Below are positions 1,831 through 53,018 of a DNA stretch of 64,000 nt, piece by piece; within the stretch, counting starts at the first letter, position 1; each line of letters opens with the position of its first letter. The notes beneath the pieces were generated by a model that was given only the letters and a program-made list of their open reading frames with translations, did not search any database and had not been told where the DNA came from. Both the position numbers and the translations under genes were made by a program. Source of the stretch: Arthrobacter silvisoli (GTDB lineage: Bacteria > Actinomycetota > Actinomycetes > Actinomycetales > Micrococcaceae); contig NZ_QRCU01000003.1 in the NCBI RefSeq assembly GCF_003369445.1, positions 1 to 64,000 of the forward strand. The letters are read 5' to 3'.

Positions 1831-3306
1831 ATGAAGCAGCAACTCCTTGAAACCCCGCGCCGCCAGTACCCGGCCCCGCCTCCCGCGGCGGGCTCCGCCG
1901 TCGAACACGGCTTGCGCTCCCGGCAGCGGCGCCGCATGGTCCGCACCGATCTGCTCACCGTGCTGCTGTGGTCCTCCCTTTCCGCCGCGGCGGCTTTGTG
2001 GTTGGCCGACGGCGGTGCCTCCTCGCTGGGCACCGCTTCCCGGATCGTCACGGCGGCCGGGATCCTGGCCGGCCTTACCGGCATGGACGTGGTGCTGATG
2101 ATGCTCCTGCTCGCAGCGCGGCTGCCGTTCGTTGATAACACCGTGGGCCATGACCGCGCTTTGGAATTCCACCGCAAGCTCGGCAAACCGGCCCTATACC
2201 TGCTGCTCGGGCACGGGCTGCTCCTGTCCATCGGCTATGGCCTGGCAGAGGGCCTGGATCCGGTCAGCGAGGCGGTGGCACTGTGGACACTGGTCCCCGA
2301 CATGTGGCTCGCGTTCGTTTCGCTGGCCATGTTCATCGCCGTCGTGGTCAGTTCCCTGGTGGCGGTGCGGCGTCGCTTCCCCTACGAGTTCTGGTACGTG
2401 GTGCATTTGCTGACGTACCTGGCCGTCGCCGCGGCCATCCCCCACCAGTTCAGCGTGGGCGGAATGTTCGCCGAGGGGACCTGGCAGCGCTGGTACTGGC
2501 TGTTGCTGTGCCTGGGCACGGGTGGGGCGCTGCTTTGGTACCGGGTGGCGGTGCCCCTCGTGGCGACCTTCCGGCACCAGTTGACCGTGAGCCGTGTGGT
2601 CCCGGTGGCGCCCGGCGTGGTGAGCATCGAAATGCACGGCCTGCGCCTGCACGAGCTCGCGGGCAGCGGTGGCCGGTTCTTCGTCTGGCGCTTCCTCGCC
2701 CCGGGTATGTGGTGGCAGGCTCATCCGTTCAGCCTCTCGGCAGAACCGGCGGCAGCACGGCCGTCGGCCGGCCGGGCCGGGACCGGGGCCGGGGCCGGGG
2801 CCGGGGCCATCCGCATCACGGTGCGCAACCTGGGCGACGGATCGGCCGCACTTACCACGCTCCGGCCGGGCACCAAGGTGGCGATCGAGGGCCCGTACGG
2901 CATCTTCAGCAGCGCGGCCCGAACGAAGAAGCGGGTAGTGCTGATCGGGGCAGGCATCGGAATCACCCCCATCCGGGCGCTCCTCGAATCCACTCCGTTC
3001 GCGTCCGGCGACGCCACGGTCCTGCTCCGCGGCAGCAACCCCGGCGAGCTGTACCTGGGCGAAGAAATCATGGAGCTGTGCCGGCGGCGGGGAGCCACGC
3101 TCTTCCACCTGACCGGCCCGCGGGCACGGAACAGCTGGCTCCCGGCCAGTGAGGTTCCCGGCGGCTTGCGGGACTATGTGCACGACCCGGCCGGGGCCGA
3201 CGTCTACGTCTGCGGTCCCGCGGCCTGGGCGCAGCTGGTCCTCGCGGATGCCCGGAGGGCCGGGGTGCCGGAAGCACAACTCCACTACGAAAGGTTTGAC
3301 TGGTGA
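1831..3306 (+). CDS. Ferric-reductase-like membrane flavoprotein with FAD and NAD(P) domains
   Basis: The 491-residue protein joins a six-helix ferric-reductase-like membrane domain (about residues 40-240) to a ferredoxin-NADP reductase-like module. Candidate haem histidines lie in FHRKLGKPALYLLLGHG and WYVVHLLTYLAVAAAIPHQ. The FAD site HPFSLS is near residue 301, and the nucleotide site GAGIGITPIRALLE follows near 370. It probably passes electrons from NAD(P)H across the membrane. Its last bases overlap the next gene as GTGA, and FMN-binding and ApbE genes follow, so the three form one electron-transfer unit. A (GGGGCC)4 tract encodes an Ala-Gly run within the FAD domain. The final electron acceptor is unknown. 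Confidence 0.88.
   Translation: MKQQLLETPRRQYPAPPPAAGSAVEHGLRSRQRRRMVRTDLLTVLLWSSLSAAAALWLADGGASSLGTASRIVTAAGILAGLTGMDVVLMMLLLAARLPFVDNTVGHDRALEFHRKLGKPALYLLLGHGLLLSIGYGLAEGLDPVSEAVALWTLVPDMWLAFVSLAMFIAVVVSSLVAVRRRFPYEFWYVVHLLTYLAVAAAIPHQFSVGGMFAEGTWQRWYWLLLCLGTGGALLWYRVAVPLVATFRHQLTVSRVVPVAPGVVSIEMHGLRLHELAGSGGRFFVWRFLAPGMWWQAHPFSLSAEPAAARPSAGRAGTGAGAGAGAIRITVRNLGDGSAALTTLRPGTKVAIEGPYGIFSSAARTKKRVVLIGAGIGITPIRALLESTPFASGDATVLLRGSNPGELYLGEEIMELCRRRGATLFHLTGPRARNSWLPASEVPGGLRDYVHDPAGADVYVCGPAAWAQLVLADARRAGVPEAQLHYERFDW
2785..2808 (+). repeat. (GGGGCC)4 hexanucleotide tract
   Basis: Four perfect GGGGCC units lie in frame in the ferric-reductase-like gene and encode a Gly-Ala repeat between the FAD-motif strand and the next beta strand. 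A change in copy number would add or remove two residues per unit without a frameshift. The G-rich strand could form a quadruplex. Confidence 0.85.
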
Positions 3307-3785
3307 GACCCAGGGCAGCATTCGCGGCGGCGATGGCGTCGGCGGGCATCCTCCTGGCCGGATGGCAAGCTGGAGCGCACATCGCCGAATCCAGTGCCTC
3401 GGCAGTTACGACGTCGGACGTGAACGGCGCGGCGGCAGGGACCGGTTCCGACGGCACAGGTTCCAGCGGGGCGGGGGCTTCGGCGAAGGCCGGGGCGGCG
3501 GCCAAGGCCGGCGGCAGCTTCACGGGCACCGCGGTCCAGACCCGCTTCGGAACCGTCCAGGTGCAGGTGACGGTCAAGGGCGGGGTCATCACCGACGTCA
3601 CCGCCTTGCAGCTCACCGACGCCGAGCAGCGCTCCGTGCAGATCAGCAACCGGGCGGCGCCGGTGCTCCGCAGCGAAGTCCTTGACGCGCAATCGGCCAA
3701 TGTACAGACGGTCAGCGGCGCCACCGTCACGAGCGACGCCTACCTGACCTCACTCCAGGGAGCCCTCGATGCCGCGAACTTCTGA
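3303..3785 (+). CDS. Membrane-anchored FMN-binding domain protein
   Basis: The 160-residue protein begins with a hydrophobic signal-anchor (about residues 5-24), then an Ala/Gly/Ser linker, then an FMN_bind domain as in RnfG and NqrC. The attachment motif SGAT is at residues 138-141, and Thr141 is the expected site of covalent FMN attachment. The GTG start overlaps the stop of the reductase gene (GTGA), so expression is coupled. The downstream gene encodes the ApbE transferase that would load the flavin. Most likely it takes electrons from the membrane reductase on the outer face. Confidence 0.85.
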   Translation: MRPRAAFAAAMASAGILLAGWQAGAHIAESSASAVTTSDVNGAAAGTGSDGTGSSGAGASAKAGAAAKAGGSFTGTAVQTRFGTVQVQVTVKGGVITDVTALQLTDAEQRSVQISNRAAPVLRSEVLDAQSANVQTVSGATVTSDAYLTSLQGALDAANF

Positions 3786-4572
3786 CCTTCGTTCCCGGAC
3801 CTTCCGCAGCATGGGCACCGTGGTCAGCCTCACCGTGCCCGCGGCTCACGGACTCACGGGACCTGAAGCGAAGGTATTGGAACTCGAGGCCGCCACCACC
3901 GCCGTCGAGCAGGTTTTCCTCGCGCACGACCGGACCTTCAGCCTCTACCGGCCGGGGTCGGAAGCGAGCGCGATCGCGCGGGGCGAGCTCGCGCTGGCTC
4001 AGGCTTCGGACGACATGCGCCGGACACATGCCGAGGCCCTGCGCTGGCGCCTGGACACCGAGGGCGCCTTCACGCCCGAGCGTCCGGACGGGGTCCTTGA
4101 CCTGGCCGGCATCGTCAAGGCCCAGGCGATCATGGAGGCCGGAACCGTCCTGCTCGCCCTCGGCCTGCAGGATTGGTGCCTCAACGCCGGCGGCGACGTC
4201 CTGGCCCACGGTTCCCCGGAACCGGGCAGGGGGGAACCGTGGCGTGCCGGCGTGGTGGACCCCGCGGACCGTGGCGCCCTGGTCTCCGCTTTCCCCCTTG
4301 GCCCGGCGAACTCACGCAGCGCCCTGGCGACCTCCGGAACCGCGGAACGCGGCGAACACATCTGGGCCGCAGGGCTGGCACGCACGGCCTCCAGCGGGTT
4401 CCGGCAAGTCTCCGTGGCGGCAGCGGACATCGTCACGGCCGACGTCCTGGCCACGGCGATCATGGCCGGCGGCCGGCGCACCCTGGACATCGCCACCGGG
4501 CGGTGGGATGTGGACGTCCTGGCCGTAAGCAACGACGGCGGACTGCTCGCCACCCCGGGTTTCCGGACGTAG
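3769..4572 (+). CDS. apbE: FAD:protein FMN transferase, ApbE family
   Basis: The 267-residue protein matches ApbE: SMGTVVSL at the N-terminus, LDLAGIVKAQAI in place of the usual DxGGxxKG block, NAGGDVLAHG, and the late ADIVTADVLATAIM metal/flavin segment. ApbE moves FMN from FAD onto a Thr or Ser of an SGAT-type motif, which the gene just upstream carries. It overlaps that gene by 17 bases. No clear signal peptide is visible, unlike periplasmic ApbE proteins, so the side of the membrane where it acts is open. Confidence 0.88.
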   Translation: MPRTSDLRSRTFRSMGTVVSLTVPAAHGLTGPEAKVLELEAATTAVEQVFLAHDRTFSLYRPGSEASAIARGELALAQASDDMRRTHAEALRWRLDTEGAFTPERPDGVLDLAGIVKAQAIMEAGTVLLALGLQDWCLNAGGDVLAHGSPEPGRGEPWRAGVVDPADRGALVSAFPLGPANSRSALATSGTAERGEHIWAAGLARTASSGFRQVSVAAADIVTADVLATAIMAGGRRTLDIATGRWDVDVLAVSNDGGLLATPGFRT

Positions 4573-4585
4573 CGGGCCGGTTCCG

Positions 4586-5365
4586 CTACAGGCGGGTCAG
4601 CTCCGGGTACCTCGGGCTCAGCCCGTCCCCCGACGATGTGCCCTTGACCCGGCGGACCACCCACGGAACGGCATGCTCGCGCATCCATTGGGCGTTGTCC
4701 CGGAGGGCGGCGATCCCGCCAACGCGTCCGACGGCGGTGCTCCCGCCGCCTGCCATGCCGTGTTCTTCGGGAGCCAGGCGCTCGTGTTCCAGCACGTCCA
4801 GCACCCGGTTCGCCATGTTGATGTGGCCCGCGACGGACATGTGCATCCGGTCCCGGTCCCACATGCGCCAGTCGTGGTACTCGCCGAAGCGCCAATAGTC
4901 CACCAGGGTGGCCCCGTGCCGGTCCGCGATTTCCCGGACCAGTTCGTTGTAGATCGCGGTCCGCCCGCGCATGGTGCCGAAGACCTTCGAGCTCCGGGCG
5001 TCGAACCCGGTGAACAGCACCACGGCGGCACCGGTGGCACGCAAGGCGGCCAGGCCGGCGTCGTAATCCTCCATCAGGGAATCGATGTCTACCTTCGGGC
5101 GGAAGATGTCGTTCGCCCCGGCGTACATGGTCACCAGTGTCGGTTGGAGCGCGACGGCGGCGTCCACTTGTTCTGCCATGATCTGCCGGAGTTTCCGGCC
5201 GCGGATGGCGAGGTTGGCGTAGCCGAAGGAGTCACTGTTCCGGCCGAGCTGTTCGGCCACACGGTCCGCCCAGCCACGGACGCCGTTGGGGCGGGCGGGG
5301 TCGGGGTCGCCGACACCTTCCGTGAAGGAATCCCCCAGGGCGACATAGCGGGCCGAAAAATCCAT
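4586..5365 (-). CDS. SGNH/GDSL-family hydrolase (copy 1)
   Basis: The 259-residue protein has block I GDSFTEGVGD with the nucleophile Ser13, block III YAGANDI, and block V DRMHMSVAGH with the catalytic Asp-x-x-His. These enzymes hydrolyse esters, including acyl and acetyl groups on lipids and sugars. There is no signal peptide, so it is probably cytoplasmic. Two more paralogues lie at 6822-8542. It is convergent with apbE, with 13 bases between stops. The substrate cannot be told from sequence. Confidence 0.9.
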   Translation of the reverse strand: MDFSARYVALGDSFTEGVGDPDPARPNGVRGWADRVAEQLGRNSDSFGYANLAIRGRKLRQIMAEQVDAAVALQPTLVTMYAGANDIFRPKVDIDSLMEDYDAGLAALRATGAAVVLFTGFDARSSKVFGTMRGRTAIYNELVREIADRHGATLVDYWRFGEYHDWRMWDRDRMHMSVAGHINMANRVLDVLEHERLAPEEHGMAGGGSTAVGRVGGIAALRDNAQWMREHAVPWVVRRVKGTSSGDGLSPRYPELTRL

Positions 5366-5459
5366 GCCGACAGTCTAATCACCAGGTGCGGCGGCCCGGC
5401 GCCCGCGCAGGATCCGCGGACCTGGCTTCAGCGCGCTCAGCGCGCGTTAAGCCCGCGGC

Positions 5460-5939
5460 TCAGCGTTCGCGCAGAATCCAGTGGTCCGGCTTCAGGCGGG
5501 CCACGATCTTCTCGCCGATGCGCGCGAGGTCCGCGACGTCGTCATCGGTCATGGCGTCCAGCATCAGCTCGCGGACCGATTCCACATGCCCCGGGGCGAG
5601 GCCGACGATGGTGTCCATGCCTGCGTCGGTCAGGTGTGCGACGGTGACGCGGGCGTCGCTGGGGTGGCCCTCGCGCTCCACCCAGCCGCGCTTCTGCAGC
5701 TTGGTGACCACGTGCGACAACCGGGACAGGGACGCACTGGTGCGGGCCGCCAACTCGCTCATGGGCAGGAAGCGGCCCTCGGATTCGGAGAGCATCGCGA
5801 GCACGTTGTAGTCGAAGAGGGACAGCTTCCCCGCCGCCTGGAGCTTGGTGTCCAACGCCGCCGGCAGCAGGGTGTTGATGCTCACGAGGGCCAGCCAGGC
5901 GCGGCGTTCCTCGGCATTCAGCCAGCGGGGTTCGGTCAT
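5460..5939 (-). CDS. MarR-family transcriptional regulator
   Basis: The 159-residue protein has a MarR winged helix: FDYNVLAMLSESEGRFLPMS, then ARTSASLSRLSHVVTKLQKR as recognition helix, then the wing REGHPSDARVTVAHLTDAG. It binds DNA as a dimer and usually represses its own gene and a neighbour. The divergent neighbour is the YciI-like gene, 41 bases away, and the gap contains the palindrome CGGGGCCCCG. The effector is unknown. Confidence 0.9.
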   Translation of the reverse strand: MTEPRWLNAEERRAWLALVSINTLLPAALDTKLQAAGKLSLFDYNVLAMLSESEGRFLPMSELAARTSASLSRLSHVVTKLQKRGWVEREGHPSDARVTVAHLTDAGMDTIVGLAPGHVESVRELMLDAMTDDDVADLARIGEKIVARLKPDHWILRER

Positions 5940-10915: not shown

Positions 10916-12046
10916 TCAGGAGTCCTTTCGGTTGGACGTGGCCAGGAGCCAGAGCAGGAAGGGGGAGCCCAGGGCGCCGGTCACGACGCCGGCCGGCAGC
11001 ACCGTGCCGTCCAGCAGCATCGGTGCCACGTTGTAGGCGAAGTAGTCGGCGGCCAGGACGATCGCGGCACCGGTAAGGGCCGACGCCGGAAGGCTGGGTT
11101 TCCCGGTGAAGCGGCGGGCGATGGGCCCGGCAAGGAAGGCGACGAAGGAGACCGGGCCGGCTGCCGCCGTCGCGACCGCCGCGAGGGCAACGGCGGCGAG
11201 CACCAGGCCGAGCCGCACTGCTCCGACGCGGATTCCGAGGCCCGCGGCGGTGTCATCGCCGAGTTCGAGCATCCGCAGCGGCTTGGCCAGGACCGCCGTG
11301 AGCGGCAGCAGGACGCAGAGTGCCAGCAGCAGCACGCCGATCCGTTCCCAGGTGGCCGGGTTGAGGGAGCCGTTGAGCCAGATGAGGGCTTCCGCGGCGG
11401 TGCGGATGTCCGCGCGGGTCATGAGGAAGCTCACCAGGGCCCCGAGCGCGGCGGCGAACCCGACGCCCGCGAGGACCAGGCGGTTGCCGGCGGCGTTTCC
11501 GTTGCGCCCGCTGGCCCCTCGGAGGCTTCCGCCGCGGGAGATCAGGTAGATGAGCAGGGCGACGGCGAGGGCGCCGAACAGGGCCGCGGCGGACACGGCG
11601 GCTCCTGAAGCGCCGAAGACCACGATCGCCAGGACCGCGGACGCGCTGGCGCCGTTGCTGATGCCGATCACGTCCGGGCTGGCGAGCGGGTTGCGGAGCA
11701 TCGTCTGGAACAATGCGCCGGACAGCCCGAACGCGACGCCGATCATCAGGCCCATGATGACCCGCGGCAGTTTGGCCTCCATCACGATGAAGCTGGCGCC
11801 TGGGATCTTCTCGCCGCCCGTGAGGTGGGCCGTGACGATGGTGACGAAGTCCGGAACCGTGACCGTGTAGCTGCCGAGCAGGATGCCCGCCACGAGCAGG
11901 AGCACGACGGCGGCCGCGAGCAGCCAGGTCCGGTTAAGCTTTCGTTTCCCCGCGCGAACTGGCAGGTAATGACCCTTTTCCGCGGTTTTGAGGGCATCAG
12001 CTGCCAGTTCGCGCTCAAGGGTGGCGCGCTCAACAACGCGGCTCAC
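10916..12046 (-). CDS. FecCD-family iron-siderophore permease (second subunit)
   Basis: The 376-residue protein has the FecCD/BtuC fold with about ten helices and typical motifs (LPRVIMGLMIGVAFGLSGA, RNPLASPDVIGISNGAS, FVAFLAGPIARR). It pairs with the permease upstream to form the channel. GTG 12046 overlaps that gene's stop (GTGA); this start is chosen for the overlap. Before the first helix is a cytoplasmic segment of about 35 residues (ERELAADALKTAEKGHYLPV) that is nearly the same as one in the partner permease and is encoded by a palindromic element (11952-12014). Confidence 0.92.
   Translation of the reverse strand: MSRVVERATLERELAADALKTAEKGHYLPVRAGKRKLNRTWLLAAAVVLLLVAGILLGSYTVTVPDFVTIVTAHLTGGEKIPGASFIVMEAKLPRVIMGLMIGVAFGLSGALFQTMLRNPLASPDVIGISNGASASAVLAIVVFGASGAAVSAAALFGALAVALLIYLISRGGSLRGASGRNGNAAGNRLVLAGVGFAAALGALVSFLMTRADIRTAAEALIWLNGSLNPATWERIGVLLLALCVLLPLTAVLAKPLRMLELGDDTAAGLGIRVGAVRLGLVLAAVALAAVATAAAGPVSFVAFLAGPIARRFTGKPSLPASALTGAAIVLAADYFAYNVAPMLLDGTVLPAGVVTGALGSPFLLWLLATSNRKDS
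11952..12014. repeat. Palindromic element inside a permease gene (copy 1)
   Basis: Perfect 14-bp arms GCGCGAACTGGCAG (11952-11965) and its complement (12001-12014) flank a 35-base loop, all in frame near the 5' end of the FecCD gene. A second copy with the same arm and loop lengths is in the partner permease (13052-13114). The encoded residues precede the first membrane helix. Confidence 0.8.
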
Positions 12047-13149
12047 AGGGAAACTCCCTTGCCGCGACGGACGAGCCACACGAACACGGGGGCGCCGAGG
12101 ATCGCGGTCATGATGCCGGCCGGGACCTCGCCGGGGAGGAGTACCACCCGGCCTACGACGTCGGCGGCCAGCAGCAGCGCCGGGGCCAGCACCAGGGAGA
12201 AGGGCAGGATCCAGCGGTAGTCCGGGCCGGTGAAGAAGCGCACGGCATGGGGAATGACCAGCCCGAGGAACCCGATGGGTCCGGCGAGCGCCGTCGCCGA
12301 TCCGCACAGCAGCACGACGCCGAGCGCCACGATTGCGCGGGAGAGGCCCACGCGCTGGCCGAGGCCGCGGGCGAGGTCGTCGCCAAGGGCCAGGCCGTTG
12401 AGGATCCGGCCGCTGAGCAGCACGATCAAAGCACCGACCACCAGGAACGGCAGGCCGGGCAGGATGACGGACCAGTCGCGCCCGGCCACGCCACCCACCT
12501 GCCAGAAGCGGAAGCGGTCCAGGGTGTCCTGGCTGGAAACGAGCACCACGTTCATCAGGGAGTACAGCCCGGCGCTCAGGGCGGCGCCCGCCAGGGCGAG
12601 CTTGACCGGCGTCGCGCCGTCCCTGCCCATCGAGGCGAGCAGGTAGACGACGGCGGCAGCTGCCGCGGCGCCGAGGAAAGCGAACCAGATGTACCCGCCG
12701 AGGCCCGTGATGCCGAAGAGGTAAATGCCGGCGACGACGGCGAGCGCCGCCCCGGCGTTGACGCCCATGATGCCGGGATCGGCCAAGGGGTTGCGGGCAA
12801 CGCCCTGCATTGCGGCACCGGCCAGGCCGAGGGCGCCGCCGGCGAGCAGGCCGAGTCCGGTGCGCGGGATCCGGGCATGGACCACGGCGTGGTTGCCCTC
12901 CGCGGGGTTGAAGTGGAGCAGCGCGTCCCACACCGTGTCGAGCGGGATGGCGCGGGCACCCACCGCCAGGGAGGCGCCGCAGGCGAGGGCGAGCACGACG
13001 ACGACGGCCAGCAGCCAGGCGGGCTGCTTGCCTTTCCGGGCGCGAACCTCCGCACGAACTGGCAGTTGTTGCCCGTTCGGAGCGGTCTTAAGGGCTTTAG
13101 CTGCCAGTTCGCGCTCCACGGAGGAGGCCGCCGTCGTGCTTGCCGTCAT
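12043..13149 (-). CDS. FecCD-family iron-siderophore permease (first subunit)
   Basis: The 368-residue membrane protein has FecCD motifs: RIPRTGLGLLAGGALGLAGA, RNPLADPGIMGVNAGAA and IGFLGLVIPHAVRFFTGPDY. With the next subunit it moves ferric siderophore into the cell. It starts 8 bases after the binding-protein stop and overlaps the next permease by 4 bases. The first 45 residues are cytoplasmic and contain ERELAAKALKTAPNGQQLPV, matching the other permease and coming from the palindromic element at 13052-13114. The rest of the two permeases is much less alike. Confidence 0.92.
   Translation of the reverse strand: MTASTTAASSVERELAAKALKTAPNGQQLPVRAEVRARKGKQPAWLLAVVVVLALACGASLAVGARAIPLDTVWDALLHFNPAEGNHAVVHARIPRTGLGLLAGGALGLAGAAMQGVARNPLADPGIMGVNAGAALAVVAGIYLFGITGLGGYIWFAFLGAAAAAAVVYLLASMGRDGATPVKLALAGAALSAGLYSLMNVVLVSSQDTLDRFRFWQVGGVAGRDWSVILPGLPFLVVGALIVLLSGRILNGLALGDDLARGLGQRVGLSRAIVALGVVLLCGSATALAGPIGFLGLVIPHAVRFFTGPDYRWILPFSLVLAPALLLAADVVGRVVLLPGEVPAGIMTAILGAPVFVWLVRRGKGVSL
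13052..13114. repeat. Palindromic element inside a permease gene (copy 2)
   Basis: Arms at 13052-13065 and 13101-13114 match in 13 of 14 positions around a 35-base loop. Geometry, arm sequence and reading frame equal those of copy 1 (11952-12014), and the loops are also similar. It encodes the N-terminal cytoplasmic segment of the first permease. Confidence 0.8.
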
Positions 13150-13157
13150 GGAGGGGC

Positions 13158-14231
13158 CTACTTGGCGGCGGCGTCAGCGCCCGCGGCGAGCTGCGGCAGG
13201 AACTTGTCCAAGGCCCACGGCAGGCTCAGCGGCGAGGAGGCGGAGATGGCCAGGGTGAGGGTGTTATCCGAATCGGCCACCAGGGCGCCGTTCTTCACCG
13301 CCGGGATCTGGCCCAGCAACGGGTCCTTGACGATCTGCTCCTTGGTCTTGGCATCCGGAACCCAAGACACGAAGACGTCAGAGTCCAGTTCGTTGGCCTT
13401 CTCGGCGGACCAGCCGGTGAAGAACTCCTTGGAGCCCTTTGACTTCTCCTCCACAATCGGGGCAGCCTTCATGCCGATTTCGCTGAGGAAGCGCGGCCGG
13501 TTGTCGGCGGCAAGGTAAACGTTCACGCCGTCGCCCTTGGCCGGCTCCAGGTTGCCGTAGATGAAGGTCTTGCCGGCGATCTGCGGGTACTTGGCAGCCT
13601 CGGCCTTGATGGTGGCCTCGGTGTCGGTGACGAGTTTCTCCGCTTCGGCGGTCTTGCCCAGGGCCTTGCCGATCAGCGTGGTGGCTTCCTGCCACGGGGT
13701 GCCGTAGGCCAGTTCGGGCTGGGCCACCACCGGGGCGATCTCGGACAGCTTCTTGTAGTCCGCCGCTTCGAGGCCGGAGTAGGCGGCCAGGATGACGTCC
13801 GGGTTCAGCTTGGCGATCTCGGTGAAGTTGATGCCGTCGGCCTCGGAGAACTGGACAGGGGCCTTGCCGCTGCCGAAGGAAGCGCCGAGCTTTTCAAGGG
13901 CGGCGTCCTTCCACGGGGTGGAGCCCTTGTCATTGTTGCCCCACTCGTTCTTCGGGACACCCACCGGAACGACGCCGAGGGCCAGGGCGATGTCGTCGTT
14001 GACCCAGGAGACGGTGACGACGCGCTTGGGCTGTTCCTTGATGGTGGTCTCGCCGAAAACGTTCTTGATGGTCACGGGGAACGCTGCGCTGGCGGCCGCA
14101 GTCGAGGCGTTCCGGGCACTGTCGGCCGGGCCGGTGGAGCAGGCAGTGAGGGAAAGCGCGACGGCGGCCAGCGCGGCGGTTGCGCTGCCTGCGGTCTTGA
14201 GCAGCGCACGGCGTGGGAGGAGGGAAGCCAT
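13158..14231 (-). CDS. Iron-siderophore-binding lipoprotein
   Basis: The 357-residue protein starts with a Tat/Sec-like signal and a lipobox LTACS, so it is a lipid-anchored binding protein. The body is a FecB/FepB-type periplasmic-binding fold: PKRVVTVSWVNDDIALALG, LNPDVILAAYSGL and FVSWVPDAKTKEQ. It captures ferric siderophore outside the membrane and delivers it to the FecCD permeases. It is the first gene of a five-gene operon. A DtxR/IdeR-like iron box lies 30-46 bases upstream, so iron repression is expected. Confidence 0.93.
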   Translation of the reverse strand: MASLLPRRALLKTAGSATAALAAVALSLTACSTGPADSARNASTAAASAAFPVTIKNVFGETTIKEQPKRVVTVSWVNDDIALALGVVPVGVPKNEWGNNDKGSTPWKDAALEKLGASFGSGKAPVQFSEADGINFTEIAKLNPDVILAAYSGLEAADYKKLSEIAPVVAQPELAYGTPWQEATTLIGKALGKTAEAEKLVTDTEATIKAEAAKYPQIAGKTFIYGNLEPAKGDGVNVYLAADNRPRFLSEIGMKAAPIVEEKSKGSKEFFTGWSAEKANELDSDVFVSWVPDAKTKEQIVKDPLLGQIPAVKNGALVADSDNTLTLAISASSPLSLPWALDKFLPQLAAGADAAAK

Positions 14232-14370: not shown

Positions 14371-14434
14371 GCAACGCGGGGTCACTTACGGCCCATGAAT
14401 GCCCCGAACATGGGCCCGGACTGACCCCGCGTTG
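14371..14434. repeat. Palindromic repeat of the AACGCGGGGTCA family, copy 1
   Basis: Outer arms AACGCGGGGTCA and TGACCCCGCGTT enclose inner arms around ACGGCCCAT. It is the most degenerate of four copies (others at 15333, 26070 and 52936). It lies between the siderophore operon and the FBP gene and is followed by short CCCGCGT-containing direct repeats up to about 14500. Confidence 0.8.
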
Positions 14435-14830
14435 TCTCCGTCCCGCGTTGTGTCTCCGTCCCGCGTGGACAGAAGCCCGCGTGGACAGAGGCCCGCGCCG
14501 TTTGGCAGGATGGCGGAACCGGACGATTAGCCGGCACCAAATCATGCATCACAGGATCGAGGGAATGAGCATGCGCGCTGCATCGGCGAACGCTGCCATG
14601 GTGAGCGGGGTGGCCGTTACGGCCTGCTGTGCGCTTCCCCTCGCGTCAGCCATCCCGCAAGGCCGTCAGGCCAACTGACCGGCCGCATCTTTCCCAAGAC
14701 CCCGAGGAATCTTCAAAATCCTCCAACGGGCTTTTCGTGCCATGCCGGATTGGCGGACGCTTCGCGCCCATTCTTCGCCCCCTGCACCTGCATTGCGTAG
14801 GGGTCCATCCGATGCGAAAGAAACTTCACC
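14435..14830. other. Mostly gene-free stretch upstream of the FBP gene
   Basis: Positions 14436-14500 hold short direct repeats (CTCCGTCCCGCGT twice, CCCGCGTGGACAGA twice). After one weak small-ORF candidate (14565-14678) nothing recognisable precedes the FBP gene at 14831. I found no fragment of a jetD gene here. Confidence 0.4.
14565..14678 (+). CDS. Possible 37-residue hydrophobic peptide (weak candidate)
   Basis: ATG 14565 follows a GAGGGA sequence and opens a 37-codon frame with an Ala/Val/Cys-rich stretch resembling a signal peptide (VSGVAVTACCALPLASA). No family is recognised and it may be chance. It is listed because the ribosome-binding site and hydrophobic run occur together in an otherwise empty region. 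Confidence 0.2.
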   Translation: MSMRAASANAAMVSGVAVTACCALPLASAIPQGRQAN

Positions 14831-15325
14831 ATGCAGAGAATCACCGCCCAGCAGATCCGTTCGTCCTTCATCAATGCGAGCCGCTCCGATGCCGCCAAGC
14901 TCAACCTTCCCCGGGATTTCGAGGCCCTCGACTGGGACAATCTTGAATTCCTGGGCTGGCGGGACCCCAAGATGCCCCTGCGCGGCTACCTCGTCATGCC
15001 GGCCGACGGGAAGCTCACCGGCATCATGCTGCGCGCGCCCGAAGGCGGGGCGGGCAAGAACCGGGCCGTGCTGTGCGAGCTGTGCCGGGATGTCTTCTCC
15101 AAGGAAGAGGTCTACCTGTGGGTAGCCCGCCGCGCCGGGCAGTCCGGCCGTGACGGCAACACCCTGGGCACACTGATCTGCGCCGACTTCCTGTGCTGCG
15201 CCAACGTGCGCAAGGAGCCGCCCGCCAACGAGATCAACCCGGACCCGGCCGCCGTCGTGCTTCGCCAAATCGCGGGCCTGCAGGAGCGGACCTCCCGTTT
15301 CCTGTCCCGCGTCCGCGAGGCATAG
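14831..15325 (+). CDS. FBP-domain protein, EF-G-binding (FusB-like) family
   Basis: The 164-residue protein matches the FBP family with a C-terminal treble-clef zinc finger. The likely zinc ligands are Cys82, Cys85 and two of Cys117, Cys121 and Cys122. The N-terminal part (MQRITAQQIRSSFINASRSD) is the helical segment typical of the family. FusB/FusC relatives bind elongation factor G and rescue it from fusidic acid; most actinobacterial members are untested. It converges on jetC with a palindromic repeat between. Confidence 0.8.
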   Translation: MQRITAQQIRSSFINASRSDAAKLNLPRDFEALDWDNLEFLGWRDPKMPLRGYLVMPADGKLTGIMLRAPEGGAGKNRAVLCELCRDVFSKEEVYLWVARRAGQSGRDGNTLGTLICADFLCCANVRKEPPANEINPDPAAVVLRQIAGLQERTSRFLSRVREA

Positions 15326-15332
15326 GCCTGAG

Positions 15333-15395
15333 CAACGCGGGGTCAGCTACGGCCCGTAAATGCCCCGAACATGGACCGTATCTGACCCCGCGTTG
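15333..15395. repeat. Palindromic repeat of the AACGCGGGGTCA family, copy 2
   Basis: CAACGCGGGGTCA pairs with TGACCCCGCGTTG, with inner arms around TACGGCCC. It fills the gap between the convergent FBP and jetC genes, 7 bases after one stop and 17 before the other. It may act as a bidirectional transcription stop, although no T-tract follows on either strand. Confidence 0.85.
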
Positions 15396-15412
15396 CCAAG
15401 GAGAGAAGGGCC

Positions 15413-18400
15413 TCAGCGGAACACGATGTCCACCGGGTTGGCCTCCGAACGCCACTGACCCGGCACGCCGGGGCCGCTGATCACCGGAGCCGTGAGCACG
15501 CCGGACCGGTTGGTGCGCTTGTCCCGCAGGATCTCCGTGACCGAGCCGAGGTGCCGGGAGAGATCGATGACATTTTCCGGGGCGGCGAGCAGCAGTTGGA
15601 AGCCGAACTCGTGCAGCGCCTTGATGCCCGCGCCGGCAAACTCCTCGGAGGCGAGCACGAAGGCCTCGTCCATCATCACGGTGCCGTACGTGGTGAAGCC
15701 CTGCTCCGCGATGCCCAGCTGGTAGCTCAGCGCCGCGGCCATGATGAACGCGGTGAAGCGCTGCCGCTCGCCGCCGGACATGGAGCCGGTGTCCGTGTGC
15801 ATGAAGACTTCCGTCTTCACACCGCCACGCGGGCCCTGCACCTGCCGGTGTTCCTTGCACTGGATGAACAGGTGGCCGCGCACGTCCAGCACCTCGGCCC
15901 GCCAGCGGCGGTCCTCCGGCGCCTGCGAACCGAGCCGCTTGACCAGCGTCTCGAGGGACTTGTAGCGGTTGCCGAGTTCGACGTCGTCCTCCGCCGTGCT
16001 GCCGGCGGCACCGGCAGAACCAGTGCGGCGGCTGTGGCGGGCTTTGAGCGCGTTCTGGATGGCGTCCTTGAACTGCTTGGCGGTGGCGGGCATAGTCTGC
16101 TTGATGTCCAGCTCGAGGTAGCTGCCCTCGTGGAAGTTCACCTCGGACAGGATGCCGTTCAGCGGCAGGATGCGGCTGGTGATGGCCCGCCGTTCCTCGT
16201 CCAGCAGGTGCAGCAGGGTGCTGAAGGATTCGTGTGTGCGCTGGTTGAAGAACTGCCTGAACTCGGCCTCCTGCGCCGGCAGGCCTTCACTGACGATCTG
16301 GTGGTAGCGGGACTCGAACTCGCCGGCCGCCCCGATCGACGTGCCGTGGTCCGCGGAAATCGCCGTGCCCCAGTCGCGCACGAAGCCTTCGAAGATACGG
16401 CTGAGCCGTTCCGCGAGGGCCTGCCCCTTGGACTCGGCCGCGTGCAGCTCGGCGAGCAGCGAGGTGCGGACCCGGTTGGCCAGGTTGTCCAGTTCGTGCA
16501 GTTCGGTGATGTCGCCGAAGCCGGTGAACTGCGGTTCCAGCGCGGCGACGGTGGCGTCCGACGGCGGCGCGTCGGCCAGGCGCTGGCGCGCCGCGTCCAG
16601 CAACGAGTCGGCCATGGTCATCTGCTGGTCCAGGGCCTTGTATTCGCTTTGCAACACGGCGGCCGAACCTGTGGAGGACTGGTGCTTTTCGCGCACGGCC
16701 TCAATGCTGGCGCGCAGCGGTTCGAGGTCCGCCTGCGCAGCCAGGGCGTCCTTGAGGCGCTGCTCGATTCGGGCCAGCTCATCCGCGGCCACCGCGGCGG
16801 ACACCTGTTCCCAGCTGCGTTCGTCCTCGGCCACGCGGCGGAGGGCCTCAAGTTGCCGGGCCATGCCCTGGTGCGAATCTTCGCGGCTCTGGGCGAGCTC
16901 GGCGGCCTTGGCCAGCTCGTTCTCCAGTTCCCCGACCTTCGCGGCGAGCAGCTCCTGCTTGGCGGCGTTGTCGAAGCCCAGCACGTAATCCTGGCGGCCG
17001 GTGAAGCGGTCATCCTTCTCCACGGTGTGCCGGTTCCGCTTGACCACGCCGCCCAGGCTCAGGCCCTTGTCCAGGCCCGCCAGCTTGTCCGGGTCCTCCA
17101 CGCAGGGGTAGGCGAAGTCCAAGGCGATCCGCTCGCGGACCCATTCCCCGGCGTCGGCGTTGATCCCCGAGGTGAGGATGTCCAGCTTCGTCAGGAGATC
17201 GCCGTCGGACACGTCCTCCACGGCCAGCGCACCGCCGGCGAGCGGCTTGGACACGTCCACCGCGCGCAGGGCGCCGCGGATGGTGTTGTCGTTCAGGAAG
17301 CGCGTGACGGCGGCAAAGTGCTCGCCGGGGACCAGCAGCGTGGTGGCGAGGCTGCGCAGGGCCCGCTCGGCGGCGGGCCGCCATTGCTCCTCCCCTTCCA
17401 CGAGGTCGATCAGCTCGCCTGCGAAAGGCAGGCGCTCTTCCGGGACACCCGTTGCCGCCGCGATGGCGGCCCGGTTCTCAATGCTCGACGGCGGCAGCAA
17501 CGACTTGCTGCTCCGCAGCGACGCGAGTTCCTGCTGCGCCGTGGCAAGTTCGCGCTTCTTGCTCGCGTGCCCGTCGAAGGCCTCGAAGCGCAGTTCACGC
17601 AGCGCCTCGGAATCGTCCTGGAGCTCGGCCGAACGCGCCGCCGCCTGCTCGTGGGCCTGGCTCCAGCCCTCGGCCGACCACTCAAGGTCCAGGCCGGCGT
17701 CGGCCAAGGCCTTCCGGGCCGCGGCCTCCACGTCCTGCCGCAGCTTCAGGCCTAGCCGGGCGTTCTCCAGCGACTGCTCGATCGCCGAAATCGCGTTGCC
17801 ACCCTGGTTGTTGTAGTCCGACTCGAGCTGCCGCAGCTCCTTGGCCAGGGCATCACGGACCGACCGTTCAGCGCCGAGCTCCTTGGCCTTCTCCTGGGCG
17901 AGCTCCTTGAAGCGGGCCAGGGTCTTCGTGCGGACCTCGACGGCGAGCTGCTGCTTGTATGAATCGAATTCCTCGCCGCTGAGCTCCCGCAGCCTGTTCG
18001 CCTCCAGCAGCGACTGCGCGTACTCCCGGTTCAGTCCGGGCACCGGCGCCAGCTGGTCGCGCTGCTGCCGCACGTCCTCCAGGCGCTGCCGGATGGACAT
18101 CAGGTTGCTGAATTCCTCCACGACGTCGTCCGCCGCCGCGAGCGTGGCCGGCGGGTCGAGCACCTGGTCCCGGAAGAAGGTGTTGACGCTGCCGCCCAGG
18201 CCCTTGCCCGCCTGGATCACCCGCAGCAGCGGCAGGGCCTGGTCCGAGCTGATCCCGAGCAGGCGGCGGAAACGCTCCGCGAACGCCTTGTGCACGTCGA
18301 AAACCTGCGCCTCGGGGAAGATACCCTCCAGGGCCCCCTTGGTGAAGCGCTTCTCCGCGATGCCCTCGATCGCAGCCAGGTCCAGCGGCTTGTGGTCGAT

Positions 18401-18862
18401 CAGGTAGAAGCGGCCGACGCTGGACTCCGTGCCGTTCTTCGGCAGGTCGAAAAGCGCCGACACCGTCACCCGGGTGCCGGCGGCGTTGTCGAACGTCAGC
18501 GCGACGGCGGACCAGGTGGCGCCCGGCCGCTGGAAGGCACTGGCCGAGCCCTCGCCCACCGCTTTGTCGCCCACCTTGCCGCGCATGTACGTGAACGTGG
18601 TGCGCCTGTCCTCCACGGAACCGCCGGCCCGCTGCGCCGCCGCCTCGTTCGAGCGCGGCCGGGCATCGAAGACCCGCAGCATGGCGTCGAACAGCGTCGA
18701 CTTGCCGACGCCTGAGTTGCCCGTCAGCAAGGTGCCGTTGCGGTCCACGTGCATTGTGTGCGCCCCGTGGAAGGTGCCCCAGTTGACCACCTGCACCAGC
18801 GCCAGCCGCATCTGGCCCGGGTTCACCTGCTCGCCGATCGGAAGCATGCTCGCGATGGTCAC
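15413..18862 (-). CDS. jetC: JetC/MksB-type SMC-like ATPase of a Wadjet-family condensin
   Basis: The 1149-residue protein is an SMC-like ATPase: Walker [10 protein letters not shown] at residues 48-56, long coiled-coil arms (about 280-430 and 640-800), signature SGGERQR at 1029-1035, and Walker B TVMMDE with Asp1065-Glu1066. The N-terminus ([20 protein letters not shown]) is typical of JetC/MksB. With JetA and JetB it forms a loop-extruding complex; in Wadjet systems it hands small circular DNA to the JetD nuclease. GTG 18862 overlaps the jetB stop (GTGA). No jetD follows: the next gene is the convergent FBP gene. Confidence 0.9.
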
Positions 18863-19797
18863 TTTGTGCTCCCGTCAGTTGTGGTTGCGGATGCCTCCGC
18901 GGTGGATGCCGATGCCGCCGAAGAGGCGGGGCCGGCATCGGCATTCTCGCCACCCAAGGTGCCGTTACCAGTTTCGGAAGCCTCGCCGTCGTCGTCCGTT
19001 TCTGCCAGTTCCAGGAGCGGCTCGGTGCCGGTTTCGTCGGCCCCCGCTGCTACCAGGGCTTCGATTTGGGCGGGGATGTCGCCGATGTTTTCGAAGGGGA
19101 GGGCCAGCGGGAGGGCCTGGGAGATGGAGAAGGTGTCGTCAATGCCGGTGGCCAGGAGGAGCTGGCGGGCCAGGAGCTTGGTGATGGTGCGGTTGACCAC
19201 GTCGGCGTCGCGCAGGGCGTCCTGCTGTCCGGAGGGCTGGTAGTGGGCCACGAGTTCGGAGATTTCCTCGCGGGTGATGGTGGGCTCGGTCTGGGCCGAG
19301 GCGTGCCGGTCCAGCAGCAGGCGCAGGCGCAGCAGCACAATCGTTTCCACGCGGCTCAGGGCACGCTGCTGGCGCAGGATGCTGGAGCGGGCACCGCCGC
19401 CGATCACTTCCGGGTCCACCGGGCGGAGCACCGCAATCTTGCGTTCGTGGTCGAGTTGCAGGTTCAGGAACAGCTCGGAGAGGCGGCTGCGGAGGATCTG
19501 CTGGTTGTCGAGCAGGGTGGTCCAGAGCTTTTCGTCCCGGCCGCCGTCGACATATGGCCCCTTCAGCAGCCGCACCAGGGCCTGGCGCAGCTTCATGGGC
19601 AGCACCCCGGTGTCCCCCGGGAAGAGGGCAGCGCCGTCAACGAAGGTATCGCGCGGCGTCACACGGAATGGATCTGCGCTGACATGTTCGAGGTGGACAT
19701 GTCCGTCCCCGGATGCCTCCGCATGGACATGGTGCGTTATGTCCACGCCGTCCTGCGGTGGGTGGACCTGTCCGTCGGTGGTGGGGGCGTCAGTCAT
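18859..19797 (-). CDS. jetB: JetB/MksE-type DUF4194 protein
   Basis: The 312-residue protein has a DUF4194 core at about residues 65-245 ([55 protein letters not shown]). It is the winged-helix partner that links the JetA kleisin to JetC. Both ends carry additions not typical of the family: about 55 His/Asp-rich residues in front ([18 protein letters not shown]) and an acidic, Ala/Ser/Thr-rich tail of about 60. The front extension is encoded by a palindromic repeat (19690-19780). It overlaps jetA by 8 bases and jetC by 4. Confidence 0.88.
19690..19780 (-). repeat. GGACATGTCC-family repeat, copy inside jetB
   Basis: On the minus strand this reads GGACAGGTCCA, then ACATAACGCACCATGTCCA, then GGACATGTCCACC. 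The same blocks occur in the same order in the intergenic copy at 381-464. It lies in frame near the start of jetB and encodes the His-rich N-terminal extension before the DUF4194 core. Confidence 0.55.
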
Positions 19798-21283
19798 CGG
19801 AATCCTTGTCGGAGGTCACAGCAGCGGAGGCCACGTCGGGGACGGTGAGTGTCACGAGCGGCAGGTACGCAGTGCGGGTGCTGCCGTCGATTTGTTCGAA
19901 GTCGATGTTTTCCCAGGCTTCCTGTCCGAACGCCGCGCCGCTGTGCAGGGCGTGCGACAGCAGGGCGCGGACGGTGTTGATGTGCCGTTCGTCGCCGGGC
20001 AGGTTCTCCCAGGCCTCCGCCAAGGTGGAGGCTCCCGCGGCAGCCGCACGGACGACGTCGGGCCTCGCCTTCGCGGACCGCAGGGACCGTACGCGGTCCG
20101 CATCGCTGAAGGCGATCGGCTCTGCGAGTTTGGGCGGCGCCGCGAACTCGTCCGGGTCGAAGAGCTTGACCATGGCGAGCGACTCGAAGGCGGCGTTGTA
20201 GAGCACCGGGGCGCGGACCAGGCCGGGCCGGTCGCGTTCGTACGGCATGGAACGGATGGCCTGCTCCGCCTCCCGCAGGACGTTCCGCAGCCGCACGGAC
20301 TGGCGGATATCGTCACTTTGGATGTAGGCGTTGAGGCTCTCGGAGAGCTTGCCGTAGATCCGCTGGATCTGGCTGTGCTGGGTGCGGAGTTCGGCCACAA
20401 GGTTCCTGAGTGTCTCGCGGTCCTCATGGCTGAGCTCGTCGGCGAACTGCCGGCCCAGCACCTCGCCGATTGCGGAGCGGAAGCGCAGCTGCTGCTGGGG
20501 GTCTTCGAGGAACGCGGTGAAGGAGCGGAAGGTCCTGCCTTCGGGGCTCTGGCGCAGGCGCTTGTCCGCCTCCAGGACCTGGGCCATGGTGGCGCCCTTG
20601 CTGAGGGATTCCTCGATGATCTGGTTGCGCAACTCGCCCACCAGTTCCTCGATGCGGTCGCGCATTTTCTTGTAATCGGCGGGCAGGCTGGCGGCGAGGT
20701 CCAGGATGTTCCCGGCGGCCTCGACAGCTTCCTCGTCGTCCAGCAGGCCGTCGAAATCGCCGGAGCTGATGTCCGCGATCAGTTGCTGGCGCTCCTGGAT
20801 TTCGTCTTCCAGGGCTTCCAGGCGGGCGCTCTGGTCCGGGTTGGTTTCGTTGGCGAGCTTCTCGACGTCGCCCAGCAGCGTCCCCAGGCGGGAACCGTTC
20901 AGGGTGGAGCGTTCGCTGGAAAGGCTGTCCAGGAACGCCAGCACGCGGGCCGCGGCTTCCGTGACTTCGTAGACGATCCGGCCGGACTGGTTCCGGCGGG
21001 TCAGGAACTGCTTGCGGGTCCATTCGTCGCCGAACGACTTGCCGTTCGCCGATCCGCCCAGTCCCGGCTCCTGGCGGCGGAGCTGCTCAAGGAAGGCGTC
21101 GACGTCGGCGTGGAACTCTTCGAGCGGAAGCTGCGGCCGGGCGCGGGTGAAGGATGCCTGCAGCACCGCAATCACCCAGGGCGCCGAGCGCGTCAGGGCC
21201 CAGGCCGGGCCCTTGGTGAGGAGTTCCAGGTCCCGGAGTCGGGCACCGATGGCGTCAGCCGAGGACATCGCTGAGCGTGACAC
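19790..21283 (-). CDS. jetA: JetA/MksF-type DUF3375 kleisin-like protein
   Basis: The 497-residue protein matches DUF3375: [20 protein letters not shown] at the N-terminus, a helical middle ([20 protein letters not shown]) and a C-terminal domain with [19 protein letters not shown]. In Wadjet/MksBEF condensins this subunit bridges the heads of the SMC dimer. It is the first gene of jetABC. GTG 21283 is preferred because AAGGAGAG lies just before it; an in-frame ATG at 21268 lacks such a site. Confidence 0.9.
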
Positions 21284-21615: not shown

Positions 21616-21906
21616 ATGAACCTCGATTTCACGGCTCTGGACACGTCCGTCTATGTCTTCATCGGAACGCTGCTGATCGGGCTCGCCCTGGCCGCCTTCC
21701 TGGCCGTGGCTGCACTGGCAACGCTTGCCTTGGCAGGGACCGGGCAGTTCCTCTGGTTCCTGCTGCGGAGCGCCTTGGGCGCGCTGGTCGATGGAATCAA
21801 CTTCGCCTGGGAGCGGGTGGTCCACCAAGCCGGGAATGTTGAGATTCCGGGAGAACTGCAGGCAATGACGGGCTCCCTGGTGCGCCAGCCCAATACGCTT
21901 CACTAG
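21616..21906 (+). CDS. Small membrane protein of unknown function
   Basis: The 96-residue protein has two predicted membrane helices in the first 60 residues (VYVFIGTLLIGLALAAFLAV and FLWFLLRSALGALVDG), then a soluble tail. The frame is open upstream to 21277, but ATG 21616 has a strong AAAGGGGGA site. I do not recognise a family. Its build resembles the N-terminal part of the membrane protein at 25379. It sits between jetA and the PadR gene, with no clear link to either. Confidence 0.7.
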   Translation: MNLDFTALDTSVYVFIGTLLIGLALAAFLAVAALATLALAGTGQFLWFLLRSALGALVDGINFAWERVVHQAGNVEIPGELQAMTGSLVRQPNTLH

Positions 21907-26059: not shown

Positions 26060-26069
26060 CGCGTCACGC

Positions 26070-26132
26070 CAACGCGGGGTCACTTACGGCCCATGTTGGC
26101 GCCCAACACCGGCCGTAAGTGACCCCGCGTTG
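26070..26132. repeat. Palindromic repeat of the AACGCGGGGTCA family, copy 3
   Basis: CAACGCGGGGTCACTTACGG pairs almost perfectly with its inverted partner ending at 26132 (CCGTAAGTGACCCCGCGTTG, a full 20-bp arm). It lies between the convergent membrane-protein and flavin-reductase genes. The arms in this copy are the longest and cleanest of the four. Confidence 0.88.
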
Positions 26133-26156
26133 GAAAGCGCGCAGCCTGGGAAGGCG

Positions 26157-52919: not shown

Positions 52920-52935
52920 CCGTTCCGGCTCCCCT

Positions 52936-52996
52936 AACGCGGGGTCAGCTACGGCCCATGTCGCGCCCCGGAATGGGCCGTATCTGACCCCGCGTT
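52936..52996. repeat. Palindromic repeat of the AACGCGGGGTCA family, copy 4
   Basis: AACGCGGGGTCA and TGACCCCGCGTT enclose inner arms TACGGCCCAT/ATGGGCCGTA around an 11-base loop. It starts 17 bases after the GNAT-AAA+ stop and ends just before the LtrA promoter. It could insulate the two genes. Confidence 0.88.
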
Positions 52997-53018
52997 GGCG
53001 TGGCGGTACTGTGTGAGC

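Follow-up and report, generated by a model that had tools for sequence, protein, structure and literature searches.

We analysed a stretch of 64,000 nucleotides from Arthrobacter silvisoli (assembly GCF_003369445.1, contig NZ_QRCU01000003.1, positions 1 to 64,000; hereafter the window), which contains three genes for the subunits JetA, JetB and JetC of a condensin-like complex. JetABC is a dimer-of-dimers motor, and JetD is the effector that is thought to cut once a small circle has been fully extruded (PMC10586767). The locus represents a known family in an unusual, well-supported state: a JetABC that is free of JetD, is under selection and is near-universal in the genus. The genes lie head to tail in the order jetA-jetB-jetC, all on the minus strand, as open reading frames (ORFs) of the window:

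19790..21283, minus strand: jetA (DUF3375, kleisin, MukF/MksF-like), 497 aa
18859..19797, minus strand: jetB (DUF4194/MksE, KITE subunit), 312 aa, 8 bp overlap with jetA
15413..18862, minus strand: jetC (SMC/MukB-like ATPase), 1149 aa, 4 bp overlap with jetB

An earlier sequence-only reading of the window had described the three genes as complete, overlapping and with their ATPase motifs kept. Our analysis bears this out: the frames are intact, and JetC carries Walker A at residue 48, the signature SGGERQR at 1029 and Walker B (VMMDE) at 1062. The type I Wadjet profiles of PADLOC were the best library matches for all three subunits, with 845 bits for JetA1 (480 of 484 positions covered), 487 bits for JetB1 and 1155 bits for JetC1. 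In Pfam, the jetA product matches DUF3375 (296 bits, E 7.5e-88), the jetB product matches DUF4194 (103 bits, 2.2e-29) and MksE (30 bits, 7.8e-07, above the cut-off), and the jetC product matches AAA_29 and SbcC_Walker_B. Searches of the PDB paired JetA with the solved JetA chains of 8dk1 and 8as8, and JetC with the JetC chain of 8as8 (1.2e-59). JetB matched no PDB chain as a single sequence; a 12-sequence JetB profile matched solved JetB chains.

By PADLOC and Pfam, the operon therefore encodes the condensin-like JetA, JetB and JetC of Wadjet type I, and the TOPRIM nuclease JetD is missing from it. Its domains (DUF3375, DUF4194 with MksE, and those of an SMC ATPase), with no JetD- or MksG-like match, also make up the MksB, MksE and MksF trio of an MksBEF complex without MksG. 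The locus does not match MukBEF: up to E 0.001, neither Pfam nor NCBIfam returned a MukB, MukE or MukF family. Nor does JetC match the SMC of SMC-ScpAB: it scores 37 bits against the SMC_prok_B equivalog, whose cut-off is 567 bits, and a canonical SMC is encoded by another gene in the same genome (915 bits).

We searched for JetD in the window's assembly, whose 78 contigs add up to 4,349,678 bases and whose completeness is rated at 100%. Neither JetD_C (PF09983) nor a full-length JetD profile built from 12 sequences had a match anywhere in this genome, the latter at E up to 10. As a control we ran the full-length profile on 15 genomes, nine JetD-positive and six others. JetD was recovered in all nine positives at E 4e-53 or better, and the best E in the other six was no better than 0.09. 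Six of the positives had contributed rows to the profile; G010, G049 and G367 had not and were still recovered. When the window was searched by tblastn, using JetD parts from which the jetC overlap had been trimmed, the best E was 0.45. The full-genome search that the sequence-only reading had proposed thus returned no JetD, so that its caveat of a partner JetD encoded elsewhere in the genome is not supported; provided that the assembly is complete, a JetD acting in trans is excluded for this genome.

Distribution of JetABC and JetD

Of the 206 genomes of the genus, 205 have a JetC match, among them all 195 of high quality. The best E was reported as 0 in 203 of the 206, the matches are fragmentary in two of 78-79% completeness, and the sole genome without a match is 68% complete. 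JetD_C has matches, some only fragments, in 92 of the 206 genomes (88 of the 195 of high quality), and 114 have no JetD match at all. Patchy distribution, which is usual for defence systems without strictly defining them, thus does not describe JetC, in contrast to JetD. The locus is syntenic as well: in the stretches of eight genus loci, fecB and a 96-aa gene are shared by all eight and an acyl-CoA dehydrogenase gene by seven. Because JetD goes unmatched in 114 genomes of the genus, several of which consist of a single contig, and nearly all have JetC, it is unlikely that an assembly error removed jetD from the window, as the sequence-only reading had allowed.

Where JetD does occur in the genus, it was not found close to the core jetC, as we call the jetC of this locus. 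The distance could be compared in 74 of the 92 JetD-matching genomes, those with a listed place for the core jetC, and the other 18 fall outside the comparison. JetD is on the same contig in 33 of the 74, the nearest being 1.28 Mb away; in 41 it is only on other contigs, where contig breaks could mask proximity. The presence of a JetD match somewhere in 92 genomes, fragments included, would fit a JetD from a second Wadjet locus serving the core JetABC in trans. We consider this very improbable: the 114 genomes without JetD, the window's among them, keep JetC (save at most one, the 68%-complete genome), and in the ten Micrococcaceae JetD loci that we read (L120-L128, L147) the jetC that JetD overlaps or directly follows is a different one, whose identity to the core, given for nine of the loci, is 27-30%.

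Across the family, JetD_C is matched in 61 of 245 genomes, and JetC matches of at least 40% identity occur in 11 genera. We fetched 28 loci at this identity, all of which contain jetA, jetB and jetC. One of them, L148, ends 216 bp past jetC and was not counted; the remaining 27, from 11 genera and each extending at least 5.5 kb past jetC, contain no JetD. A second set consisted of named relatives, the best 80 of 213 from the genome collection, some from the same assemblies as the fetched loci. They include Arthrobacter, Pseudarthrobacter, Paenarthrobacter, Specibacter, Zafaria, Zhihengliuella, Paeniglutamicibacter and Glutamicibacter. JetD is absent from all 80 (70 reach at least 1.5 kb past jetC), and 79 have all three jet genes. 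The comparison of related strains suggested by the sequence-only reading therefore places JetD beside none of the 27 fetched loci or the 70 named ones. In L213, a contig labelled Sporosarcina beigongshangi, a Firmicute, JetC is of the Micrococcaceae type with 67% identity to the query, perhaps through contamination or transfer.

By contrast, wherever we read a JetD-linked Wadjet locus, its jetD either overlaps jetC or comes directly after it. We also covered more distant relatives. At the level of the order, we compared 104 jetC places with JetD places at a 4-kb limit, with the core places of the window's family excluded. The ratios of places without JetD to places with it were 20:2 in family f10, 16:5 in f8, 4:1 in f12, 4:3 in f16, 3:2 in f11, 2:4 in f13, 1:5 in f4 and 1:16 in f6. 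In the f10 genus to which G441 belongs, JetC is matched in 33 of 33 genomes at 73-76% identity. JetD is in none of the 13 f10 loci read; jetB was seen in only six of these stretches, jetA in only three, and the whole JetABC in three. Among 20 further JetD-free loci from the order, 18 have all three jet genes, and L165 and L166 are without a jetB match. At the level of the class, JetD is absent from six of seven loci in f36, six of eight in f19, one of two in f32 and the one in f38; it is present in the single f29 locus and the single f30 locus. Loci in several other actinobacterial families are thus JetD-free too. In total, leaving the named relatives aside, 25 of 100 genome stretches have JetD and 75 do not, in a set that is hand-picked and is no random sample.

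We also asked whether a JetD lies hidden in the JetD-free loci, a possibility that we rejected. A tblastn search of 78 JetD-free sequences with JetD ORFs gave matches in 31. Thirty of these fall within jetC DNA, a few reaching slightly beyond the jetC end, because over-extended JetD ORFs read jetC in another frame; the 31st is in L089, 7 kb from jetC. When the search was repeated with 27 JetD parts trimmed of the jetC overlap, the top match was again this L089 place (E 0.004), and all others had E no better than 0.02.

Since the absence of JetD is the rule both in the genus and in the fetched loci of 10 further genera, the JetD-free state is old in this lineage. The picture implied by the sequence-only reading, of one operon that lost its jetD, is not supported.

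Selection, motifs and the JetC tree

Five pairwise comparisons with relatives, by simple counting and with synonymous divergence (dS) up to 1.5, gave ratios of nonsynonymous to synonymous divergence (dN/dS) of 0.05-0.11 for jetA, 0.06-0.12 for jetC and 0.15-0.34 for jetB. The jetA and jetC genes are under strong purifying selection. In the ORFs that best matched JetC, Walker A, signature and Walker B are all present in 58 of 58 genus and family JetC and in 80 of 80 named JetC. The three motifs are likewise found in 77 of 77 other JetD-free rows. Among JetD-linked rows, 24 of 25 pass the motif patterns, and L147 fails that for Walker B. We give next to no credence to a decaying leftover of a Wadjet operon, for which the absence of jetD could be taken as a sign: frames and motifs are intact, the locus is present in 11 genera, and the dN/dS of jetA and jetC (about 0.05-0.12) contradicts decay.

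In a JetC tree of 81 rows, the JetD label needs 2 changes, against a mean of 17 when the labels are shuffled. We made a second tree of 86 rows by adding 21 rows to this set and dropping 16 near-duplicates. In both trees the window falls in an entirely JetD-free Micrococcaceae clade with a support of 100. In L165 and L166, whose JetA and JetC are of the JetD-linked type, neither JetD nor a jetB match was found in the stretches read. A single clade of JetD-linked JetC was not rejected (p 0.33) in an AU test of 34 chosen rows under a simpler model and without L180, L195, L165 and L166. The number of JetD losses is not countable, because of long branches and an unknown root.

JetD contact has been assigned to the IFDR motif of JetB (PMC10586767). 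We did not locate this motif in the JetB proteins studied here, whose PDB alignments do not reach that N-terminus. Sixteen alignment columns are common only to the two JetD-linked groups at the 80% level. We dropped these columns as a mark of JetD contact, as all 15 group pairs give 7 to 29 such columns.

These results indicate that the Arthrobacter JetABC is an old, vertically kept, nuclease-free complex and not a damaged Wadjet. A number of observations weigh against our preferred explanation of the complex, a long JetD-free second condensin (see below). Within the family, any JetC match is found in 142 of 245 genomes and 23 of 32 genera, so that the core is not universal there. One genome of a core-bearing genus (G241, genus g7), 99% complete, has no JetC match, and at L108, another locus of the family, about 5 kb separate jetA from jetB. 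In the 86-row tree, the JetD label needs 5 changes against a shuffled mean of 21, and the JetD-bearing L180 and L195 nest inside a JetD-free clade; JetD was possibly regained in these two, or retained where their sisters lost it. Together the nesting and the 5 changes point to gain or loss of JetD around such cores. Given the control of 15 group pairs, nothing in the proteins specifically marks a release from JetD, and the conserved LF.GDTG of JetB has its counterpart in the LW.GDTG of JetD-linked JetB.

Neighbours of the operon

Downstream of jetC, the window contains two further features, both outside the jet system:

14831..15325, plus strand: FBP_C zinc-finger gene (PF16571, 5e-59), convergent with jetC, a neighbour only
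15327..15401, no strand: palindromic repeat (inverted repeat) between jetC and the FBP_C gene

The sequence-only reading was right that a palindrome and a convergent FBP gene, and no jetD, follow jetC; the palindrome is not specific to jetC. It is about 64 nt long with a half-site like GCAACGCGGGGTCA, and four paired copies occur in the window, at 14371-14435, 15332-15396, 26069-26133 and 52934-52998 (half-site pairs at 14371/14422, 15332/15383, 26069/26120 and 52934/52985). With up to 2 mismatches allowed, the half-site has 11 matches in the window against 1.5 expected. Two of the copies flank the FBP_C gene. In the nearest relative, L089, a half-site directly follows jetC, and the stretch yielded no FBP_C gene. 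Since the palindrome is dispersed, its interpretation as a jetD scar or a jetC terminator is unsupported. We also rejected FBP_C as a replacement for JetD, because it is a zinc-finger protein, occurs in no more than 3 of the 8 genus loci for which a wide flank was read, and is absent from the L089 stretch.

A survey of neighbours found no fourth gene constantly beside jetABC among the top 14 clusters, of which the widest spans 6 of 22 taxon labels and varies in its distance from jetABC; spurious ORFs of GC-rich DNA make up much of the cluster list. A 96-aa ORF at 21616-21906, divergent from jetA and with no Pfam match, has a counterpart in all 8 genus loci read. Genes for iron-siderophore uptake lie beyond jetC in Arthrobacter (12043-14231 in the window). 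In family f10, genes that are fecB/fecCD-like, judged by their similarity to those of the window, lie between jetB and jetC (L118, L133) or upstream of jetC (L129, L131).

Function and known systems

Among the options named in the sequence-only reading, the one most in line with the evidence is that the complex acts on chromosome structure in the manner of an MksBEF that has no MksG. Going from an intact motor without a nuclease, we infer the function of a chromosome condensin. The complex is probably a type I JetABC that has long been without JetD and serves as a second condensin, organising or segregating the chromosome or large replicons. By homology with related JetABC and MukBEF, JetA (kleisin), JetB (KITE) and JetC (SMC) would assemble into a dimer-of-dimers that uses ATP to extrude loops of DNA. 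As no nuclease would act at the end of extrusion, circles would not be cut, and the remaining loop extruder may organise or segregate the chromosome (or large replicons) beside the canonical SMC. It is because a canonical SMC is also present in the genome that we find the role of a second condensin most likely. The precedent is the MksBEF of Pseudomonas aeruginosa, which is reported to play such a part (review PMC10586767). A caution comes from Corynebacterium glutamicum, whose MksBEFG, nuclease included, was found to have no role in chromosome folding (PMC7083940); action on the chromosome by an actinobacterial Jet/Mks complex is thus not a given.

JetABC might still restrict plasmids, either together with another nuclease whose gene lies elsewhere or by means other than cutting (sequestration or mis-segregation). 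We hold this to be unlikely, if worth keeping in mind. The complex is of the same type I family as the plasmid-restricting JetABCD, and the C. glutamicum MksBEFG affects plasmid maintenance (PMC7083940). In L197, a 754-kb plasmid of Arthrobacter sp. ERGS1:01, an annotated RecB-family nuclease/helicase gene (2059-5679) lies about 150 bp upstream of a JetD-free jetA, and 4 other loci of 3 genera encode a RecB-like protein on the same strand at a greater distance upstream. However, the neighbour survey yielded neither a nuclease partner nor any constant companion, and JetABC is near-universal and syntenic in the genus, unlike the patchy JetD. A part in some other DNA process, such as repair, competence or megaplasmid upkeep, appears more doubtful again. 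Two Arthrobacter copies are on replicons of 1.35 Mb and 0.75 Mb, so JetABC does occur on large replicons.

The complex, which almost all bacteria of the Arthrobacter group carry, resembles a plasmid-cutting defence system minus its cutter, which suggests that it has turned from a weapon into a housekeeping tool of the chromosome. We lean slightly towards a history of domestication, in which a plasmid-defence SMC machine has become a core second condensin in Arthrobacter and 10 related genera, and separately, visibly so, in several other actinobacterial families. Part of the Wadjet systems counted in Actinobacteria would then be housekeeping complexes. One survey puts Wadjet at 42% of Actinobacteria (PMC10482375), a figure that may or may not include JetD-free loci. 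Counts of defence systems from JetABC alone may overstate Wadjet; the Paenarthrobacter locus described below, classed as defence, is a probable example. About 45% of the sampled species of the genus have a JetD match elsewhere in the genome, and where this belongs to a full Wadjet, both complexes could be compared in one cell. Among the titles and abstract openings listed (in one search 20 of 724), a scope that leaves out most subscription papers and all bioRxiv preprints, we found no paper that presents a JetABC without JetD as a core trait of Arthrobacter and related bacteria.

Four known systems offer a comparison. With Wadjet type I (JetABCD), the locus shares JetA1, JetB1 and JetC1 by PADLOC, the A-B-C order with overlaps, and PDB homologues of JetA and JetC; it differs in that JetD was found neither at the Arthrobacter locus nor in the genome, and in its distribution, which is not patchy but near-universal in the genus, with conserved synteny. 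Paenarthrobacter lasiusi S21 probably carries the same core locus, matched by listing and not by sequence: a 'Wadjet' JetA, JetB and JetC are listed there beside a separate full type I system and classed as a defence system, and the absence of JetD passes without comment in the accessible text and its Table 6 (PMC11719660). The C. glutamicum MksBEFG is likewise an actinobacterial Mks/Jet trio beside SMC-ScpAB (the window's genome was assessed for SMC alone), but it includes the nuclease MksG, and its action is on plasmids and not on the folding of the chromosome (PMC7083940, PMC10123090). MksBEF of Pseudomonas aeruginosa is likened here by description rather than by protein comparison; the closest library profiles for the Arthrobacter proteins are those of type I JetABC. 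According to a review (PMC10586767), this MksBEF probably came about when JetD was lost, and it takes part in organising the chromosome. It shares with the Arthrobacter locus a kleisin-KITE-SMC trio without a nuclease, in our case in a genome that also encodes a canonical SMC.

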